From assembly GCF_030385785.1 (NCBI RefSeq), contig NZ_JAUEDK010000012.1:1-64000 (forward strand): a stretch of 64,000 nucleotides of DNA. The letters are read 5' to 3'. Positions 36,688 through 49,621 of the stretch are shown piece after piece. The notes under the pieces are model-generated. The model was not told where the DNA came from and did no database searches. It saw only the letters and a list, made by a program, of their open reading frames with translations. The stretch is from Crenobacter oryzisoli. GTDB taxonomy: Bacteria; Pseudomonadota; Gammaproteobacteria; Burkholderiales; Chromobacteriaceae. Every line of letters begins with the position of its first letter. Within the stretch, counting starts at the first letter, position 1. The translations under genes and the position numbers were made by a program.

Positions 36688-36843
36688 GAACCTGTCCACG
36701 ATTTGCTGCGTTCTATCTTCTAGACCTTGGGTGATCCTGCATTGAAATGCCGCTCAACATGCTCATGGACTCCCTGTCCACTCCGCTTTTTCGCGTCATT
36801 TCGCCTTGGCTGACCCTTCGTCCGCGAGATCGTGAACTGGTTC
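36688..36843. mobile_element. Palindromic MITE, copy 1
   Basis: A 156-bp non-coding element bounded by GAACC...GGTTC with imperfect 18-bp terminal inverted repeats and flanked by a direct TAA on both sides (36685-36687 and 36844-36846), a target duplication. Most of its length is self-complementary, with TGGAC-TCCCT-GTCCA at the centre. It is homologous to 45404-45544. TNA duplications suggest mobilisation by an IS5-family transposase; that is inference. Confidence 0.8.
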
Positions 36844-36850
36844 TAAATGC

Positions 36851-40976: not shown

Positions 40977-42071
40977 CTAGCCGTGCGCGTGTTCCGGCGT
41001 CGGCAGCACCCCCTGGCTTGCCAGGTGGAACAGCAGCCAGCCTATCGCCAGCACGCCGAGCAGCGCCGCCGCGCCGACCAGCACGCGCAACGACAAGGAC
41101 AGCAGGCGCGAACTCTGCACCGGGTCGGCGTCGGGATCCGGTGCCGGCATGCTCGTCGGCTCGACCGGCACGACGTCGGCTTGCTCCACCGCTTCCTCCT
41201 CCGCCTCGGCCGCTGGTGCCACCGTCGCGACCGGGGCGGCGAACCCAGGGCTGGCGGGGGCCAGCGCCACGGCCGGCACCGCCAGCCTGGCTGTTGCCTC
41301 CGTTTCTTCGGCCGACGCGCCGAAGCTTGCCAGCCGTTTCATCAGCCCGGCAGCCAGGCCGAGCGGCGGTGGCGCGATCAGCGTCGGGCGCTGCTGGCGG
41401 ATGATGCGGCTCTCCGCTAGCACGAACACCACGCACAACAGCGGGATCGCCAGCGACAGCGCCGGGGCCTGAGTGGCGATCCACGGGGCGACCAGCGGGT
41501 CGGACACGCCGATGCGCCCGGCGATCCAGCCGAGCATCGCGCTGCCGGCCGGCACCCAGAGGGGGTTGTCGTCGAGCAGCCGGGTGATGAACAGGCTGCC
41601 GTACATCAACAGCGGCACGCTGAACAGCAGGCCCAGCACCAGGAACAGCACACTGCCTTGCGCGGCGGCGGCGAGCGCCACCACGTTGTCGAGGCTCAGC
41701 ACCAGGTCGGCGCTGACCACCACCACTACCGCCGACCAGAGCCGGTCGACCTCGCTAGACGCGTCGTCCGCCTTGCCCGTGGGGGGCTCCAGGTCGCCGA
41801 GCAGCAGCTTGATCGCGATGGCGATCAGTAGTGCCGCGCCGATCAGCCGCAGCAGCGGCACCTGCAGCAGGAAGCTGACCACGGTGGTCAGAAGTACGCG
41901 GAGCAGGATGGCGAAACCGGTGCCGATCAGCACCGCGCGCTTCATCAGCGGCCGCGGCAGGCTGCGGCAGGCCAGCGCGATCACCAGCGCGTTGTCTCCG
42001 CTGAGCAGCAGGTCGAGGAAGAACACCTGAAACGCCATGCCGATGGCGTGGCCGAAACTGTCAAAACCCAT
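40977..42071 (-). CDS. TerC family membrane protein with long C-terminal extension
   Basis: 364 residues. The TerC core (1 to about 225) has two repeats with acidic membrane motifs LDLLLSGDNALVIAL and SADLVLSLDNVVALA, the sites thought to bind metal. TerC/Alx/YkoY proteins export Mn2+ or help metallate exported proteins. After the core comes an Ala/Pro/Glu-rich linker (about 255-320), one extra transmembrane helix (about 326-350) and a His-containing end (HAHG). It ends an operon read hflK, hflC, nramp, terC, 31 bp after the NRAMP gene. Confidence 0.88.
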   Translation of the reverse strand: MGFDSFGHAIGMAFQVFFLDLLLSGDNALVIALACRSLPRPLMKRAVLIGTGFAILLRVLLTTVVSFLLQVPLLRLIGAALLIAIAIKLLLGDLEPPTGKADDASSEVDRLWSAVVVVVSADLVLSLDNVVALAAAAQGSVLFLVLGLLFSVPLLMYGSLFITRLLDDNPLWVPAGSAMLGWIAGRIGVSDPLVAPWIATQAPALSLAIPLLCVVFVLAESRIIRQQRPTLIAPPPLGLAAGLMKRLASFGASAEETEATARLAVPAVALAPASPGFAAPVATVAPAAEAEEEAVEQADVVPVEPTSMPAPDPDADPVQSSRLLSLSLRVLVGAAALLGVLAIGWLLFHLASQGVLPTPEHAHG

Positions 42072-42102
42072 TATGTTTTCCCATGCTCGCCGCCGTGCCC
42101 GT

Positions 42103-43341
42103 TCATCCCAGCGCTCCGGCGATGCCTGAATAAAGGCCGATGCCGGCGGTCAGCGTGAACACGGTGGCGACGGCCGCGCCGTACCAGCCTTTCAGGCGAT
42201 GTTCCTCGGGCAGCTCGCGGTGAGCCAGCCAATAGAGGAAGCCCAGTACCACCGGCAACAGCAGCGCGTTGACCACGCCGGTGGCGATCGACAGCCGCAC
42301 CAGGTTGATGCCGGACGAGACCAGCATGCCACCGGCCGCCAGTATCAGCCCGAACGCGGTGTAGAACCACGGCGCCTCGCGCGGATGGTTCTCCAGCGAG
42401 TGGTGCTTGCCGCTGACCTCGCCGAGCGCCCAAGCGGTCGTCAGGCACACGACGATAGTCGCGACCAGCGCACCGCCGCTCAATGCCACCGCGAACAGCA
42501 GCCGGCCGGTATGCGGGCCGAGCACGGCGGTGAACGCCTCGGCGATCTGCGGGATATTATCGAGCGCCATGCTGCCGCGGCCTTCGAACGCCGCCGCCGC
42601 CGCTACCAGCACCGCAGCAGTGACCACCTGGCACAGCACCGCGCCGATCAGGGTATCGAGCCGTGCCGCCCTCAGGTCGGCCTGTTCCAGGCCTTTGTCG
42701 ATCAGCGCCGACTGCTGGTAGAACACCGTCCACGGCATGATGCTGGTGCCGAGGTTGGCGGCCAGCAGGTAGAGGTAGTCGCGGTTGCCCAGCGGCATGT
42801 GGTGCAGTTGGCCGACCAGCTGACCGTAGTCGGGATTGGCCCGCCACGCCACCACCAGGAAAGCCAGCTCGAACACGCCCAGGCAAATCGCCACCCGCTC
42901 CACCGACTGGTAGCTGCCGGTGCAAACCATCGCGAAGATCAGCAGTGCCAGCACGGCGATCGTCTGCCACACCGGCACGCCGAACAGCTGGCCGACGCCG
43001 GCAAGACCGCTCATCTGCGTCACCAGCGCGCCGAAGCAGCTGACCACCAGCGTCGCGGTGGCAAGCCGCGCCGCGGCGCTGCCGAAGCGCTGCAGGATCA
43101 GCTCGCCGTAGCCCTTGCCGGTGCACAGAGCGAGGCGCACCGTCAGTTCCTGTGCCACGAACAACAGCGGGATGATCAGAAACTGCAGCAGCAGCAGGCG
43201 GTAGCCCCACTGCGCCCCGCTTTGCGAGGCGGTGATCACGCTGCCGGCGTCGGTGTCGGCGAGCATCACCACCAGACCCGGTCCCAGCGCCGCAGCCAGG
43301 TGCTTCAGACGGGAAAGCGACAGCGGATGGCTGTGATTCAT
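42103..43341 (-). CDS. Divergent NRAMP family metal transporter (MPW type)
   Basis: 412 residues with about 11 membrane helices. In helix 1 the canonical DPGN is replaced by ADTDAG (28-33); in helix 6 MPW (202-204) stands where classical NRAMPs have MPH, so the metal-coordinating methionine is kept. This supports transport of a transition metal such as Mn2+ or Fe2+, but the changed helix 1 makes specificity uncertain. ATG 43341 (MNHSHPL) is one base past the hflC stop, indicating translational coupling. Confidence 0.88.
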   Translation of the reverse strand: MNHSHPLSLSRLKHLAAALGPGLVVMLADTDAGSVITASQSGAQWGYRLLLLQFLIIPLLFVAQELTVRLALCTGKGYGELILQRFGSAAARLATATLVVSCFGALVTQMSGLAGVGQLFGVPVWQTIAVLALLIFAMVCTGSYQSVERVAICLGVFELAFLVVAWRANPDYGQLVGQLHHMPLGNRDYLYLLAANLGTSIMPWTVFYQQSALIDKGLEQADLRAARLDTLIGAVLCQVVTAAVLVAAAAAFEGRGSMALDNIPQIAEAFTAVLGPHTGRLLFAVALSGGALVATIVVCLTTAWALGEVSGKHHSLENHPREAPWFYTAFGLILAAGGMLVSSGINLVRLSIATGVVNALLLPVVLGFLYWLAHRELPEEHRLKGWYGAAVATVFTLTAGIGLYSGIAGALG

Positions 43342-43342
43342 C

Positions 43343-44218
43343 TCAGCGCTGGCCTCCTGGGCCGCTCCGGAAGTCGTGCAGCAGCGCCGAGTCGGGCGAC
43401 AGCACCAGCGTCGCGCCCGACCCGGCCAGTGCTTGGCGGTAGGTCTGCATCGAGCGGTAGAACTTGTAGAACTTCGGGTCCTTGCTGAACGCGTGCGCCA
43501 GGATCTGGTTGGCCTCGGCATCGCCCTCGCCGCGGGTGATCGCGCTCTGGCGCTCTGCTTCGGACAGGATCACGGTGCGGTCGCGGTCGGCCTTCGCCTG
43601 GATCTGCTGCGCCCACTGGGCACCCTGCGCGCGCAACTCCTTCGCCTCCTGCTGGCGAGCCGATTTCATCCGGTCGTAGATCGCCTGGCTGGTCTCCAGC
43701 GGCAGGTCGGCGCGGTGCAGCCGCACCTCGGTCACCGCCACGCCGAGCGGTCGGGCGCGTTCGGCCACTTCCGCCTGGATGCGCGCGACGATCTGGCTGC
43801 GCTCGGTCGACAGCAAGGCCTTCAGCTGCACCTTGCCAAGCTCCCGGCGCAGCGAGGTGCTGACCAGCTGGTTCAGCTGAGGGCGGGCCTGCAGGTCGGT
43901 GTGTAGCGACTGGTAGAAGCGTAGCGGGTCGACGATGCGGTAGCGGGTATAGGTCTCCACCTCCAGGCGCTTCTCGTCGCCGAGGATCACCTGTTCGGGC
44001 GCCGGCGCCAGTGTCTGCAGCCGGGTGTCGAAGAACTGCACCGAGTCGACGATGGGCAGCTTCCACTTGAGGCCCGGCTGCTCGTTGACATCGACCGGCG
44101 CGCCGAGCCGGATCACCAGCGCCTTCTGCCCCTCGGGCAACGTGTACAGCGTGGAGCTGACGAGCCACAGCAGCGCAAAGCCGCCGATCACGCCGATGCC
44201 GCGCAACGATCGCTTCAT
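43343..44218 (-). CDS. HflC-like SPFH-domain membrane protein
   Basis: 291 residues: an N-terminal transmembrane anchor (about 7-24, GVIGGFALLWLVSSTLYTL), the SPFH/band 7 domain, and a helical C-terminal region. The stretch VTEVRLHRADLP and the run EAERQSAITRGEGDAEANQILAHAFSKDPKFYKFYRSMQ are typical of HflC. HflC pairs with HflK to form a cage that modulates the FtsH protease. It overlaps hflK by 4 bp. The classical hflX-hflK-hflC context is missing, so this may be a second, specialised pair. Confidence 0.9.
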   Translation of the reverse strand: MKRSLRGIGVIGGFALLWLVSSTLYTLPEGQKALVIRLGAPVDVNEQPGLKWKLPIVDSVQFFDTRLQTLAPAPEQVILGDEKRLEVETYTRYRIVDPLRFYQSLHTDLQARPQLNQLVSTSLRRELGKVQLKALLSTERSQIVARIQAEVAERARPLGVAVTEVRLHRADLPLETSQAIYDRMKSARQQEAKELRAQGAQWAQQIQAKADRDRTVILSEAERQSAITRGEGDAEANQILAHAFSKDPKFYKFYRSMQTYRQALAGSGATLVLSPDSALLHDFRSGPGGQR

Positions 44219-45258
44219 TTCGCGCCTCCCTTGGCGGCGGCCTTGGCCTGGTTATCCTGCATCTGCAGGTAGGGCACCACGCCGGCGCCCTTGCCGGTCG
44301 AGTCGGTGACGATCACCTTGCTGGCCTTCTTCAGCACCTCGTCCATGCTGTCGAGATAGAGCCGCCAGGCGATGACGTCCTTGGCCTGCGCGTAGCTGTG
44401 GTAGACCGAATCGAAGCGTTTGGCCTCGCCTTCTGCCAGGTTCACCACCTGGCTCTTGTACGCCTCGGCCTCCTGCTCGATACGCGCCGCCTCACCCTGC
44501 GCCTTGGGCAGGATGTCGTTGCTGTACGCCTGCGCCTCGTTGCGGGCGCGCTCCTGGTCGGCGCGGGCGCGCTGCACGTCGTTGAACGCATCGATCACCG
44601 CCGACGGCGGGTCGACCCGCTGCAGCTGCACCTGGGTGACCAGGATGCCGGACTGCTCGCCGTCGAGCATCTGCTGCAACAGCGTGCGGGTCTGGTCGGC
44701 CACCTGCTGGCGGCGGTTGGACATCGCGGCCTGGATCGGCGTGTGCGAGATCACGTCGCGTAGCGCGCTCTCGGCGGCGATGCGCAGCGCGGTTTCCGGG
44801 TCCTTCACCCTGAACAGGAACTGGCTGGCGTCCTTGATGCGCCAAAACACCACCGCATCGGCCTCGACGATGTTCTCGTCGCCGGTGAGCATCTGCTTCT
44901 CGCGCGGGTCGGTGACGTCGGTCGGCATGTCGTCGTACAGGTTGGCGAGCCGGATCAGATTGATCTGGGTCACCCTGGGCAGCAGCACCGCCTCGATCGG
45001 CCAGGGCAAGTGGTAGTGCAAGCCCGGCTCGGTGGTGTCCACCCAGGCGCCAAAGCGCAACACCACCCCCTGTTCGTCCGGCTGCACCCGGTACACGCCG
45101 GCCATCAACCAGGCTGCGACGATCAGCCCCGACAACAGGGCCAGCCCCCGGCCCTGGAGGCCGAAGAGCTGCAGGTAGTAGTCGAACTGCCGACGCAGCG
45201 CGCCAAGGAGCGCGGGCGGGGCGACAGGAAGGTCGTCTGGTCGCGGAGGTGCAGCCAT
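44215..45258 (-). CDS. HflK-like SPFH-domain membrane protein
   Basis: 347 residues with one transmembrane helix (about 40-60), the VQPDEQGVVLRFGAW start of the SPFH domain, and a long coiled-coil C-terminus (ARADQERARNEAQAYSNDILPKAQGEAARIEQ). E. coli HflK has a glycine-rich N-terminus that is absent here. ATG 45258 is preferred over a TTG at 45282. First gene of the hflK-hflC-nramp-terC operon, preceded by two strong hairpins and a MITE. Confidence 0.9.
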   Translation of the reverse strand: MAAPPRPDDLPVAPPALLGALRRQFDYYLQLFGLQGRGLALLSGLIVAAWLMAGVYRVQPDEQGVVLRFGAWVDTTEPGLHYHLPWPIEAVLLPRVTQINLIRLANLYDDMPTDVTDPREKQMLTGDENIVEADAVVFWRIKDASQFLFRVKDPETALRIAAESALRDVISHTPIQAAMSNRRQQVADQTRTLLQQMLDGEQSGILVTQVQLQRVDPPSAVIDAFNDVQRARADQERARNEAQAYSNDILPKAQGEAARIEQEAEAYKSQVVNLAEGEAKRFDSVYHSYAQAKDVIAWRLYLDSMDEVLKKASKVIVTDSTGKGAGVVPYLQMQDNQAKAAAKGGAK

Positions 45259-45312
45259 AGTCGTCTCATGGAGGGTGGGCAAGTTTGCCCGAATGGCTCG
45301 GCCCCGGGGGGC

Positions 45313-45366
45313 GGGCTGTTAAGCGAAGCCGCCCGGCCTTGGCCGAACGGCTTCGCTTAACAGCCC
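45313..45366. promoter_or_regulatory. Very strong hairpin in the hflK leader
   Basis: A perfect 19-bp inverted repeat (45313-45331 and 45348-45366) with a 16-nt loop that itself contains GGCC-TT-GGCC. It lies 54 bp upstream of the hflK ATG. There is no T-run, so it is not a standard terminator. A further small stem GGGCAA/TTGCCC follows at 45278-45291, nearer the start codon. Confidence 0.55.
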
Positions 45367-45389
45367 GACACCGGGCGCTGCCCGGTGTC
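45367..45389. terminator. Second hairpin between the NRAMP genes
   Basis: GACACCGGGC-GCT-GCCCGGTGTC, a perfect 10-bp stem with a 3-nt loop directly abutting the 19-bp hairpin. It may end transcription from the upstream NRAMP gene, though no T-run is present. Confidence 0.45.
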
Positions 45390-45403
45390 GGTATCCGTAC
45401 TTA

Positions 45404-45544
45404 GAACCTGTTTACGATCTGCTGCACTCGGGTGATCCTGCGTTGAAATGGCGCTCAACATGCTCATGTACTCTATGTACATTCCGCTGTTTCGCGCCCT
45501 TTCGCTTTGGCTGCCCCTTCGTTCGCTAGATCGTAAACAGGTTC
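45404..45544. mobile_element. Palindromic MITE, copy 2
   Basis: 141 bp, bounded by GAACCTGTTTACGATCT and its exact inverse, and flanked by direct TTA on both sides (45401-45403, 45545-45547). The interior is homologous to copy 1 but lacks a roughly 17-bp stretch. The centre reads TGTAC-TCTAT-GTACA, against TGGAC-TCCCT-GTCCA in copy 1, so both partners of a base pair changed together. No coding capacity. Confidence 0.85.
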
Positions 45545-45555
45545 TTAGCGGTGCA

Positions 45556-47193
45556 TCAGATCAGCGCTACCTGGATCACTCGGTAGATCACCATGCCCAT
45601 CGCCACCACCAGATAGACGCGCAGCACGCCCATCCACAGGCGGTTACGCTGCGACAGCACCATGGTCGGCAGCTTCGTCAGCGGGGCCATCCGCCAGCTG
45701 TACAGCGCCTTCAGGTCGATCTTGCGCTCCTGTTTCGGGATGCTGCGGTCGGCTTCCTCGCGAGCGTGCAGCACGTTCACCGCGATCGCGATGACGAGCC
45801 CCACCACACCGCCGCTGATCAGGATGTCGGTGATGGTTTCGCCGGACATGTCTGGGAATACCACGGCAGCGGTCAGGATGATCGACAGCAGCACCAGCAC
45901 GGCGACCACCACTGCGGTCAACAGATTGGTCACGCGGTTGTTCACCCACGGGCCCAGCACGTCCTTGTCGTTGCACAGGATCAGCAGGAACACGGTGGCG
46001 CTCGGCAACAGCACGCCGGCCAGCGTCTGCACGGCATTGGTCAGCAGGCCCAGCGGCACGCCAGGCAGCAGCACCAGCGCGGCGGCCAGCGCGATCAGGC
46101 CGCAGTACATTGCGTAGAAGCCCTTGGCGTCGCCCGGCTTGCGGTGTAGCGAGTGCTTCAGGCTCAGCACGTCGCCGAGGGCGTACGCGGTCGACAGCGA
46201 CACCGCCATCGCGCCGATGATGCTGGCGTCGATCAGCGCGATCGCGAACAGTACGCCCGGTACGCGACCGTAGTACTTGGCGAAGCCCGTTGCCACGGCA
46301 CCGGCGTCCTGGAAGTGGCCCAGCTCCGGTCGGCCGCCGAACAAGGCGGCAGTGAAGGAGATCATCGCCACCGCGCCGATCACCACCAGCACGATGCCCA
46401 GCCACAGGTCGGCGCGCTCGTATTTGATGAAGCGCGGGGTGATGCGCTTGTCGATCACGTAGCTTTGCTGGAAGAACAGCTGCCACGGCGCCACGGTAGT
46501 GCCGACGATGCCGATGATCACCAGCATTACGTCCGACAGCTTGCCGCCGGTCGGCATCTGCGGCACCAGGAAGTCATGCGACACCTGCGTCAGCGGCGGG
46601 TGCACCATCACGAAGATCGGCACCAGCACCAGGCTGCCGACCACCAGGATCAGCGAGAAGCGCTCGAAGCGGCGGAAATCGCCGGTGCTGGCCGACAGCA
46701 TGATGAACACAGCGGCCAGGCACACGCCGGCCACCTTGGGCACGCCGAGGAAGTCCATGCCGAGGCTGATGCCGATGAACTCGGTGACGATGGTTAGCGC
46801 GTTCAGGATGAACAGGTCGATCGCGCTGAACGCGCCCCAGAACTTGCCGAAGCGTTCCAGGATCAGCCGGGCGTGGCCGACGCCGGTGACCGCGCCGAGG
46901 CGCAGCACCATTTCCTGGTTCACATACAGTACCGGGATCAGCAGGCACAGCGTCCACAACAGCGAGGTGCCGTAGTTCTGCCCGGCCTGCGCATAGGTGC
47001 TGAACGCGCCGGCGTCGTTGTCGCCGACCATCACGATCAGGCCTGGGCCGAGGATCGCCAGAAGGGTCTTGAAGCGTTGTTTCCAGCCTTGACGCAACTC
47101 GATGTCGTCGTGGCGGATGGTGCCGAGCGCACCGCGAATATCGCCAACGTGGGCCGTATCCAGAACGGCGGTTTCCACTTTTTGATTGGCCAT
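45556..47193 (-). CDS. Divergent NRAMP family transporter (APW type, possible Mg/NRMT-like)
   Basis: 545 residues with about 11-12 helices and a soluble loop near residues 455-500. Helix 1 carries GDNDAG (57-62) instead of DPGN, and helix 6 carries APW (235-237): the methionine that coordinates soft metals in classical NRAMPs is Ala. Loss of that Met is the known mark of NRAMP-related magnesium transporters, so Mg2+ or another hard cation is a fair guess, not proof. It is a separate unit from the hflK operon downstream. A 10-bp-arm palindrome lies 57 bp ahead of the start. Confidence 0.88.
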   Translation of the reverse strand: MANQKVETAVLDTAHVGDIRGALGTIRHDDIELRQGWKQRFKTLLAILGPGLIVMVGDNDAGAFSTYAQAGQNYGTSLLWTLCLLIPVLYVNQEMVLRLGAVTGVGHARLILERFGKFWGAFSAIDLFILNALTIVTEFIGISLGMDFLGVPKVAGVCLAAVFIMLSASTGDFRRFERFSLILVVGSLVLVPIFVMVHPPLTQVSHDFLVPQMPTGGKLSDVMLVIIGIVGTTVAPWQLFFQQSYVIDKRITPRFIKYERADLWLGIVLVVIGAVAMISFTAALFGGRPELGHFQDAGAVATGFAKYYGRVPGVLFAIALIDASIIGAMAVSLSTAYALGDVLSLKHSLHRKPGDAKGFYAMYCGLIALAAALVLLPGVPLGLLTNAVQTLAGVLLPSATVFLLILCNDKDVLGPWVNNRVTNLLTAVVVAVLVLLSIILTAAVVFPDMSGETITDILISGGVVGLVIAIAVNVLHAREEADRSIPKQERKIDLKALYSWRMAPLTKLPTMVLSQRNRLWMGVLRVYLVVAMGMVIYRVIQVALI

Positions 47194-48324: not shown

Positions 48325-48789
48325 TCAATGCTGGTGGGCGTCGCCTGCTGCCGCACCGTCGTCGACCGATACCTCGACGGTCACTTTGCCGGCACGCTTG
48401 AAGGTGAGCGTCAGCGGAAAGTGCTCGCCGCTCTTCAACGGCTTGGCGAGCTCCATCAGCATCAGGTGGGCGCCACCCGGTTGCAGCGCCACCGTCTGGC
48501 CCGGTGCGATCACGAGGCCGTCTTTCAGCTCGCGCATCTTCAACACGCCGTTCTGGTTGAGGTTCTGGTGCAGCTCGACCATGCCGGCGCGGGGGCTGCT
48601 GGCCGAGAGCAGGGTGTCAGGCTGCTTGCCGTGGTTGCTGATCGCCAGATAGGCGCCGCCTACGTTGACGGTCGGTGCGGTACTGCGGCTCCACGGGTGG
48701 CTGATCGCGATGTTGCCGGCATGGAAGTCTTGCGCAAGCGCAGGTAACGCGAGGCAGAGGCAGGCGGTGGCGAGAAGGCGGTTTAGCAT
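48325..48789 (-). CDS. PCuAC-type periplasmic copper chaperone
   Basis: 154 residues with a Sec signal peptide (cleavage near ALA-QDF). The copper site pattern H-x10-M-x22-H-x-M is visible as His74, Met85, His108 and Met110 (HQNLNQ, KMREL, GAHLML). PCuAC proteins deliver Cu(I) to the CuA or CuB site of cytochrome oxidase. A His-rich tail (DAHQH) ends the protein. ATG 48789 is used because the longer frame lacks a leader. Single-gene unit with its own terminator. Confidence 0.92.
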   Translation of the reverse strand: MLNRLLATACLCLALPALAQDFHAGNIAISHPWSRSTAPTVNVGGAYLAISNHGKQPDTLLSASSPRAGMVELHQNLNQNGVLKMRELKDGLVIAPGQTVALQPGGAHLMLMELAKPLKSGEHFPLTLTFKRAGKVTVEVSVDDGAAAGDAHQH

Positions 48790-48976
48790 GCGACTTTGAT
48801 CTTTCGGAAACAGCGTTGCCGTGAGCCTAGCACGAAAGCCGTGCGGCACAATGCGACCGAATGTCGCAGCAAGGTTGCGCCGAGGAGACACTCGCTTACC
48901 GGAACACGACGGCGTCATGGCTGCAGCGGTAGAAGCCGCTAGAATGCAGCTCTGTTGGTCGTTCCCCCTTCCTTTC

Positions 48977-49621
48977 ATGCTCAATTTGTCCTTGCAGTTC
49001 CTGTTCGGCGGCCTGGTGAGCCTGCTCACCATCACTAACCCGCTATCGAAGATCCCGCTGTTCGTGTCGCTGACGCAGCATATGAGCGAGCGCCGCCGTG
49101 ATCATCAGGCCAAGATGGCGTGCATTTACGCTGCGGCGATCATGCTGGTGTGCCTGATGGCCGGCAACCTGATCCTGGCGGTGTTCGGCATCTCGTACGG
49201 CGCGCTGCGCATCGCCGGTGGCTTCGTGGTGGCGGTGCTCGGCTACCGGATGCTGTTCCTCACCCAGGATCCGCAGATGACGCCGCGGCCGAGTAACGAG
49301 CGCGAAGACTATTCGTTCTTTCCACTGGCGATGCCGGGCATCAGCGGCCCAGGCACGATTGCAGTGGTGATCGGCATCTCCACCGAGATCATGGAACAGC
49401 CGACCTGGCCGGGCCGTGCGGCGGCGTTTTTCATGACCTTTCTCGCGATCGCCGGCACCTCGGTCGGCATGTGGCTGGTGCTGCGCTCGGCGACGATGAT
49501 CAGTCAGCGCATGGGCCGCTCCGGCCGCGAGGTGATGACGCGCTTGATGGGCTTCCTGTTGATCTGCGTCGGTGTGCAGTTTGTCGGATCCGGCGTGCGG
49601 ACCTTCATGGCCGGCTCCTGA
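48977..49621 (+). CDS. MarC family integral membrane protein
   Basis: 214 residues with six hydrophobic helices. The family stretch LTITNPLSKIPLFVSLT near residue 15 and FFPLAMPGISGPGTIAVVI near residue 115 (NPxGxxP-like and PGISGPG repeats) define MarC/UPF0056. Once linked to multiple antibiotic resistance in E. coli, but the transport function is unproven. ATG 48977 (MLNLSLQF) starts the first helix. Confidence 0.9.
   Translation: MLNLSLQFLFGGLVSLLTITNPLSKIPLFVSLTQHMSERRRDHQAKMACIYAAAIMLVCLMAGNLILAVFGISYGALRIAGGFVVAVLGYRMLFLTQDPQMTPRPSNEREDYSFFPLAMPGISGPGTIAVVIGISTEIMEQPTWPGRAAAFFMTFLAIAGTSVGMWLVLRSATMISQRMGRSGREVMTRLMGFLLICVGVQFVGSGVRTFMAGS

Follow-up and report, generated by a model that had tools for sequence, protein, structure and literature searches.

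A second HflK/HflC pair encoded with TerC- and NRAMP-type transporters in Crenobacter oryzisoli and other proteobacteria

In Escherichia coli, HflK and HflC form an assembly with FtsH (PDB 7vhp) that is reported to enhance the degradation of certain membrane substrates (PMC12048511), and their genes belong to the canonical order hfq-hflX-hflK-hflC. A survey of SPFH proteins (PMC13086221) describes a single, highly conserved hflK-hflC operon, names the Neisseriales as the exception to its conservation in betaproteobacteria, and also covers operons in which an SPFH gene has a dedicated partner gene, NfeD. In Bacillus subtilis, co-immunoprecipitation links MeeF and MeeY, two proteins of the TerC family, to FtsH and to the flotillins FloT and FloA, and FtsH is essential when MeeF and MeeY are absent (PMC10550928). 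The NRAMP-related transporter EleNRMT (PDB 7qia) carries Mn2+ as well as Mg2+ and loses detectable Mg2+ transport in the mutant T224A, and in other NRAMPs a methionine in transmembrane helix 6 (TM6) selects against alkaline earth ions (PMC8806188). Here we describe a four-gene cluster (hflK-hflC-NRAMP-terC, referred to as the cassette) in a 64,000-nucleotide stretch of DNA of Crenobacter oryzisoli (contig NZ_JAUEDK010000012.1, positions 1 to 64,000; the window), and its counterparts in other proteobacteria.

The cluster occupies positions 45258-40977 on the minus strand, and its features are listed in Table 1. An earlier note made from the sequence alone had placed the genes correctly, with an overlap of 4 bases (ATGA) between hflK and hflC, 1 base between hflC and the gene for NRAMPb, and 31 bases between the latter and terC; its naming of the products as HflK, HflC, TerC and two NRAMPs (NRAMPa being encoded directly upstream on the same strand) is borne out by Pfam and NCBIfam scores above cut-off, and the two NRAMPs are indeed divergent, sharing merely 33% identity. 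The start of hflK is most likely the ATG at 45258; the open reading frame itself is open to a TTG at 45282. All five genes are under purifying selection (dN/dS 0.13-0.46) in comparison with the genus-mate Neisseriaceae bacterium JH1-16 (G036). An anti-phage defence system was rejected, as none of the four cassette proteins matched a PADLOC model.

Table 1. Genes and spacer elements of the cassette region (window positions)
Feature	Position	Strand	Evidence
NRAMPa, NRMT-like transporter directly upstream of cassette	45556..47193	-	PF01566, 266 bits (cut-off 29.8)
Repeat element of 143 bp, bounded by inverted ends of 18 bp, in the NRAMPa-hflK spacer	45403..45545		exact inverted ends
Strong double hairpin in the NRAMPa-hflK spacer, resembling a terminator or leader	45283..45400	-	-85 kcal/mol, z = -8.35
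hflK of cassette (second HflK)	44215..45258	-	TIGR01933, 259 bits (cut-off 159.4); cassette clade 100/100
hflC of cassette	43343..44218	-	TIGR01932, 198 bits (cut-off 134.4); cassette clade 100/100
NRAMPb, Nramp-related transporter of cassette	42103..43341	-	PF01566, 206 bits (cut-off 29.8); motif and tree
terC, YjbE subfamily	40977..42071	-	TIGR03717, 181.5 bits (cut-off 134.8)

The cassette is conserved far beyond this strain. The 61 genomes of the family Chromobacteriaceae were searched with NRAMPb as query (E <= 1e-10; surroundings taken for all matches of at least 53% identity), and matches were found in 33; hflK-hflC-NRAMPb is present in 29 genomes and terC is next in 28 of these, so that the neighbourhood search proposed in the earlier note recovers all four genes in 28/61 genomes of the family, and in other families as well. 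By genus, hflK-hflC-NRAMPb occurs in 2/2 (g1), 10/10 (g2), 14/19 (g3), 1/6 (g7), 1/1 (g8) and 1/13 (g10) genomes; terC and the end of NRAMPb are missing in G014 (g3), and damaged cassettes are found in G044 (g8; frameshifted) and G007 (g2; hflC split). Within the same order, NRAMPb matched 26 of 399 genomes at E <= 1e-70, 20 of them outside the family, and two of these 20 (G136 and G157, representing two other families) have the cassette; the best match of each of the 20 was opened, and second matches of G330 and G358 were left out. None of 20 matching genomes of the same class (of 369, the window genome aside) shows the cassette, an absence that is tentative where the matches lie on short contigs. 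Cassettes that lack NRAMPb would escape these NRAMP-based searches.

A search of the phylum with HflK yielded matches in 205/398 genomes at E <= 1e-60. Apart from the window genome, only G939, G955 and G888 scored at least 440 bits, and TerC adjoins HflKC in all three; no terC or nramp was found in 13 lower-scoring HflK regions that were opened. In family f275, which we take to be Magnetospirillaceae, five of 55 genomes (G955, G1161, G1162, G1166 and G1167) carry the genes in the rotated order NRAMP-terC-hflK-hflC, and 16 other HflK regions opened (of 54 HflK rows; 33 unopened) contained no terC or nramp; in family f255, hflK-hflC-terC is present in 2/18 genomes (G888 and G939). Among 385 genomes of Alphaproteobacteria, the class of G955, only G955 and G1257 matched at E <= 1e-105, the latter with no cassette. 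The total is 38 loci of this second pair (HflKC2), with TerC adjacent in 37 and an NRAMP in 36. A chance neighbourhood of unrelated genes would fit only NRAMPa, which is adjacent in a single genus; against 38 loci in two gene orders, five families and at least three distant groups it is wildly improbable, and for the four-gene cassette it was ruled out by conservation in two gene orders. We are almost certain that hflKC2-terC-nramp is a conserved, co-evolving module.

Spread on plasmids was rejected: the best plasmid matches of HflC (621 records) and NRAMPb (177 records) were all below 60% identity, and of four plasmid regions read, three (Azospirillum twice, Tistrella) contain hflKC without a terC or nramp annotation in the vicinity and one (Acidithiobacillus) contains an NRAMP with no hflKC. 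Free-standing NRAMPb genes had no clear conserved neighbours among the matches listed (40 loci).

The window genome encodes seven SPFH-domain matches, and its ordinary locus hfq-hflX-hflK-hflC-hisZ-purA (G000:C45; L232:5161-11321) is predicted with each gene above its NCBIfam cut-off; the window pair is thus an extra, second HflKC, and the hflKC near hflX for which the earlier note had suggested looking does exist. Neither hfq nor hflX is found at the cassette. In 16/17 other cassette genomes there is a further pair of neighbouring SPFH genes, assigned to hflKC from its position, and those of G955, G888 and G939 read as HflK and HflC. The best PDB matches of the cassette pair are E. coli HflK and HflC, and the cassette resembles the canonical system in passing the family cut-offs and in the order hflK-hflC with overlap; it differs as a paralogous pair without hfq and hflX, tied to terC and nramp, that forms a clade of its own with fixed residues. 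As separate observations, the hfq-hflX-hflK-hflC locus of the window genome stands despite the Neisseriales exception given in the SPFH survey (PMC13086221), and SPFH gene clusters of three in a row occur elsewhere in G002, G004, G005, G017 and G025, perhaps comparable to PaFlo5-7 of Pseudomonas aeruginosa in the same source.

Phylogenetic trees were calculated for 56 HflK and 56 HflC sequences, including 20 of the 38 cassette loci. Cassette HflK and cassette HflC each form one clade of all 20 rows (support 100/100; one change in 100% of bootstrap trees), which is placed inside a fork (100/99) with eight ordinary rows of f275 and far from the ordinary HflKC of the window genome. Since the cassette clades nest within ordinary HflKC of f275, the trees indicate that HflKC2 probably arose as a duplicate of the ordinary hflKC of this alphaproteobacterial family, became linked to terC and nramp, and was then passed on horizontally to Chromobacteriaceae and further proteobacteria, the direction being inferred. 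Residues fixed in the cassette proteins include W18 and Y25 (within or close to the membrane helix), H168, S219 and T259 of HflC, position 219 being S in cassette rows and A in 36/36 others, and W306 and D314 of HflK. Hence, the two circumstances that the earlier note had named as speaking against its proposal, a gene order unique to the strain and an only hflKC locus, are both contradicted, because the neighbourhood is conserved far beyond the strain, an ordinary hflKC is present, and the cassette HflKC is a separate clade with TerC and mostly an NRAMP.

The NRAMP slot of the cassette is filled from two lineages, which argues for a functional slot: 15 of 18 cassette rows group as a single clade (100/100), surrounded by free-standing relatives of the same order and class, and three (G955, G1166 and G1167) come from another NRAMP lineage. 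The earlier note had called this partner metal importer-like, of which the assignment to the Nramp family stands; an ordinary MntH-type manganese importer was rejected for NRAMPa and NRAMPb, as the canonical motifs DPGN (TM1) and MPH (TM6) are absent from both and the MntH scores (92 bits for NRAMPb, 106 for NRAMPa) are below the cut-off of 430. The best PDB match of both is EleNRMT (157 bits for NRAMPb, next 54.5; 185 bits for NRAMPa, next 75), their motifs being DAGS in TM1 and GTSIMPW in TM6 (NRAMPb), and DAGA and APW (NRAMPa). Compared to the NRMT site (Asp55, Gly58, Thr224, Ala227, no TM6 His; numbers 227 and 229 placed by alignment), NRAMPa reads D, A, T, A, W with one change (Ala for Gly58), and NRAMPb reads D, S, T, M, W with two.

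Counts at this site were made for the 15 main-lineage cassette rows and 26 free-standing rows, leaving out L164 (free-standing, of the other lineage) and six NRAMPa rows. At position 224, all 15 cassette proteins have T (12) or S (3), against A in 26/26 free-standing ones, position 225 is S or C versus V in 26/26, and Met227 and Trp229 are retained in all 41 rows. Hence, the main-lineage cassette proteins share with EleNRMT the replacement of the first TM6 His by Trp and, in 12/15, Thr224, and differ from it in Met227 and Ser58 and, in 4/15, in a Glu for Asp55. From the combination in NRAMPb of an NRMT-type threonine with a transition-metal methionine, we infer a Mn2+-type substrate. A module for magnesium, or another hard ion, would agree with the best match of both NRAMPs to a Mg2+ transporter, the missing canonical motifs, the T...A-P-W pattern of NRAMPa, and the three other-lineage cassette NRAMPs without Met; we consider it quite unlikely, given that NRAMPb has the Met which works against alkaline earth ions in other NRAMPs, and that EleNRMT itself transports Mn2+ (PMC8806188).

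In 22 aligned cassette TerC sequences, G25-D26-N27-A28, D122, S126 and D128-N129-V130 are all invariant. YjbE-type TerC is linked to manganese, a further point against magnesium. The AlphaFold2 model of the window TerC (mean predicted local distance difference test score 69) has seven helices between residues 3 and 230 and another at 317-352; the tail of Chromobacteriaceae TerC comprises an Ala/Pro-rich linker and one extra C-terminal helix, the helix being taken from this model. A different conserved tail, judged by eye, is found in TerC of f255 and G157, and in G955 and G1167 (L217:2951-4354 and L245:5681-7066) the tail is a response-regulator receiver domain, which makes TerC a fusion protein. 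Outside the cassettes, the TerC rows with the highest scores come from the presumed Magnetospirillaceae.

The gene context of some cassettes includes candidate regulators. In G888 (L218:5028-11551), FeoA/B, a Fur-family gene and hflK-hflC-terC lie in a row, with the hflK reading frame 22 bases after the Fur-family gene; a histidine kinase gene adjoins the cassette in G136 and is two genes off in G1166 and G1167 (by Pfam in G136 and G1167, by resemblance in G1166), and a response regulator is also near by in G1166. Further neighbours are a second NRAMPb and a P-type ATPase for cations in G136, DUF4337 upstream and DUF1615 downstream in the g2 cassettes (tested in G002; DUF1615 also in G010), and a divergent SPFH gene in G025 (L085:4810-5709) and, by position, in G017 and G026 (Chromobacterium-type). 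A setting with Fur or response regulators speaks for regulation by metal, and would suit an HflKC2 that acts as an FtsH adaptor, protecting or delivering NRAMPb and TerC according to metal status, with no metal-delivery platform; so would the scores of the window pair as HflK and HflC and of two further cassette HflK above the NCBIfam cut-off. To keep a paralogous pair with two transporters, however, exceeds what the degradation of two proteins needs, and we regard turnover control of this kind as somewhat unlikely.

A bipartite motif, TGTCATCC-N14/15-GCGTT, was found at the 5' end of hflK, or shortly ahead of it, in 21/24 cassettes of g2 and g3 (e.g. L279:4529-4555) and in no other of the 313 loci searched; the expected occurrence of a slightly looser form is about 0.01 per 64 kb, and we take the motif to resemble an alternative sigma-factor promoter. 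It would fit a shared stress regulon, in which envelope or metal stress needs all four co-transcribed genes and HflKC2 makes no physical contact with the transporters. This is unlikely, as the motif is absent from the window and as co-regulation leaves unexplained both the dedicated HflKC clade with TerC in 37/38 loci and the refilled NRAMP slot.

The best explanation overall, which combines the origin of the module described above with an HflKC2 assembly for metal delivery and quality control, is one that we hold at a little under even confidence. In its favour are the HflKC2 loci with TerC and mostly an NRAMP in two gene orders, the single clades of cassette HflK and HflC, the refilled NRAMP slot, the T or S at position 224, the candidate regulators near by and the ordinary hflKC kept in parallel. 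Its mechanistic part, drawn by analogy, is put forward more tentatively: in the inner membrane, HflKC2 would build a cage or microdomain of the SPFH type that holds TerC and the Nramp-related protein; TerC would bring a divalent metal, Mn2+ being the likeliest, to the outer face for the loading of exported proteins at the Sec translocon; the Nramp-related protein would supply or recover the metal; and the assembly would bring FtsH to remove membrane proteins that are jammed or damaged by metal. The connection between TerC, FtsH and SPFH proteins is carried over from the work in B. subtilis, where a TerC-family protein is likewise tied to SPFH proteins and the tie to FtsH is known; in Bacillus the tie is by co-immunoprecipitation and genetics and to flotillins, whereas here, in Gram-negatives, it consists in terC being linked to the genes for an HflKC paralog and an Nramp-related protein. 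The SPFH-NfeD operons are similar in pairing an SPFH gene with a dedicated partner gene; that partner is NfeD, not metal transporters, and the word 'TerC' is absent from the main text of the survey. The suggestion of the earlier note that the cassette may be a platform dedicated to divalent metals is plausible from the sequences. Alternatively, and with less likelihood, the HflKC2 cage may have changed its passenger, so that TerC and the Nramp-related protein, whether joined by FtsH or not, are enclosed in a membrane-walled compartment where a metal ion crosses the membrane and is loaded onto proteins during their export; if so, SPFH cages would be general housings, re-equipped by swapping the operon partner.

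Several observations weigh against the metal-delivery and quality-control assembly. In G042 the cassette pair is the only recognizable HflKC pair, so that the ordinary role may fall to HflKC2 as well. In Bacillus, the partners of the TerC proteins are flotillins rather than HflKC. The NRAMP count is by construction in 31/38 loci, since NRAMPb was the query there; the seven loci found by HflK alone have TerC in 7/7 and an NRAMP in 5/7, and in the f255 loci (G888 and G939) no NRAMP adjoins terC up to the nearby contig end. The three other-lineage cassette NRAMPs have A at position 224 and N or S, and no Met, at 227, and Glu replaces the metal-binding TM1 Asp in four of the 15 main-lineage proteins (L082, L085, L279 and L147; three Chromobacterium-type genomes and G157); a common substrate, or transport at all, is thus not assured. 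Cassette TerC rows group only weakly (76/68). A yybP-ykoY manganese riboswitch sits upstream of some YjbE-subfamily TerC members; no Rfam match to it was found in the window, and nine cassette loci gave only three tRNA matches.

The earlier note had counted NRAMPa with the island. The four-gene part is conserved beyond the strain, as described above; NRAMPa was rejected as a member of the unit, its adjacency being limited to the window's genus, since the hairpin and the repeat element set it apart from hflK and since the fetched cassette regions of other genera are without it. Among the cassette genomes of the family, NRAMPa is beside the cassette only in the window genome and G036, and it is located elsewhere in other genera. 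None of 200 shuffles reached an energy as low as that of the double hairpin; a copy (83% identical, with substitutions) is found at the equivalent place in JH1-16, and the idea of a conserved leader was dropped, as the hairpin is by sequence confined to the window's genus. The 143-bp element resembles a miniature inverted-repeat transposable element and has diverged copies at window positions 36726-36844 (86%), in L002 (78%) and elsewhere in JH1-16 (89%). Adjoining the island at 48325-49621, a gene for the copper chaperone PCuAC and a MarC-family gene are predicted on opposite strands.

No description of an HflK/HflC-TerC-NRAMP unit was found in the open-licence literature, judged by titles and abstract openings, in agreement with the earlier note. 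In contrast to the single, highly conserved hflK-hflC operon of the SPFH survey (PMC13086221), HflKC is here seen duplicating and specializing. A natural operon of TerC, a dedicated HflK/HflC pair and a transporter offers ready-made genetics to test if transporters are housed in SPFH cages, and bears on how TerC loads metal onto exported proteins and why TerC depends on FtsH. Several proteobacterial groups carry a specialized second hflKC in an operon with TerC- and NRAMP-type transporters, which points to an unreported membrane device for handling a metal, probably manganese, alongside membrane protein quality control.

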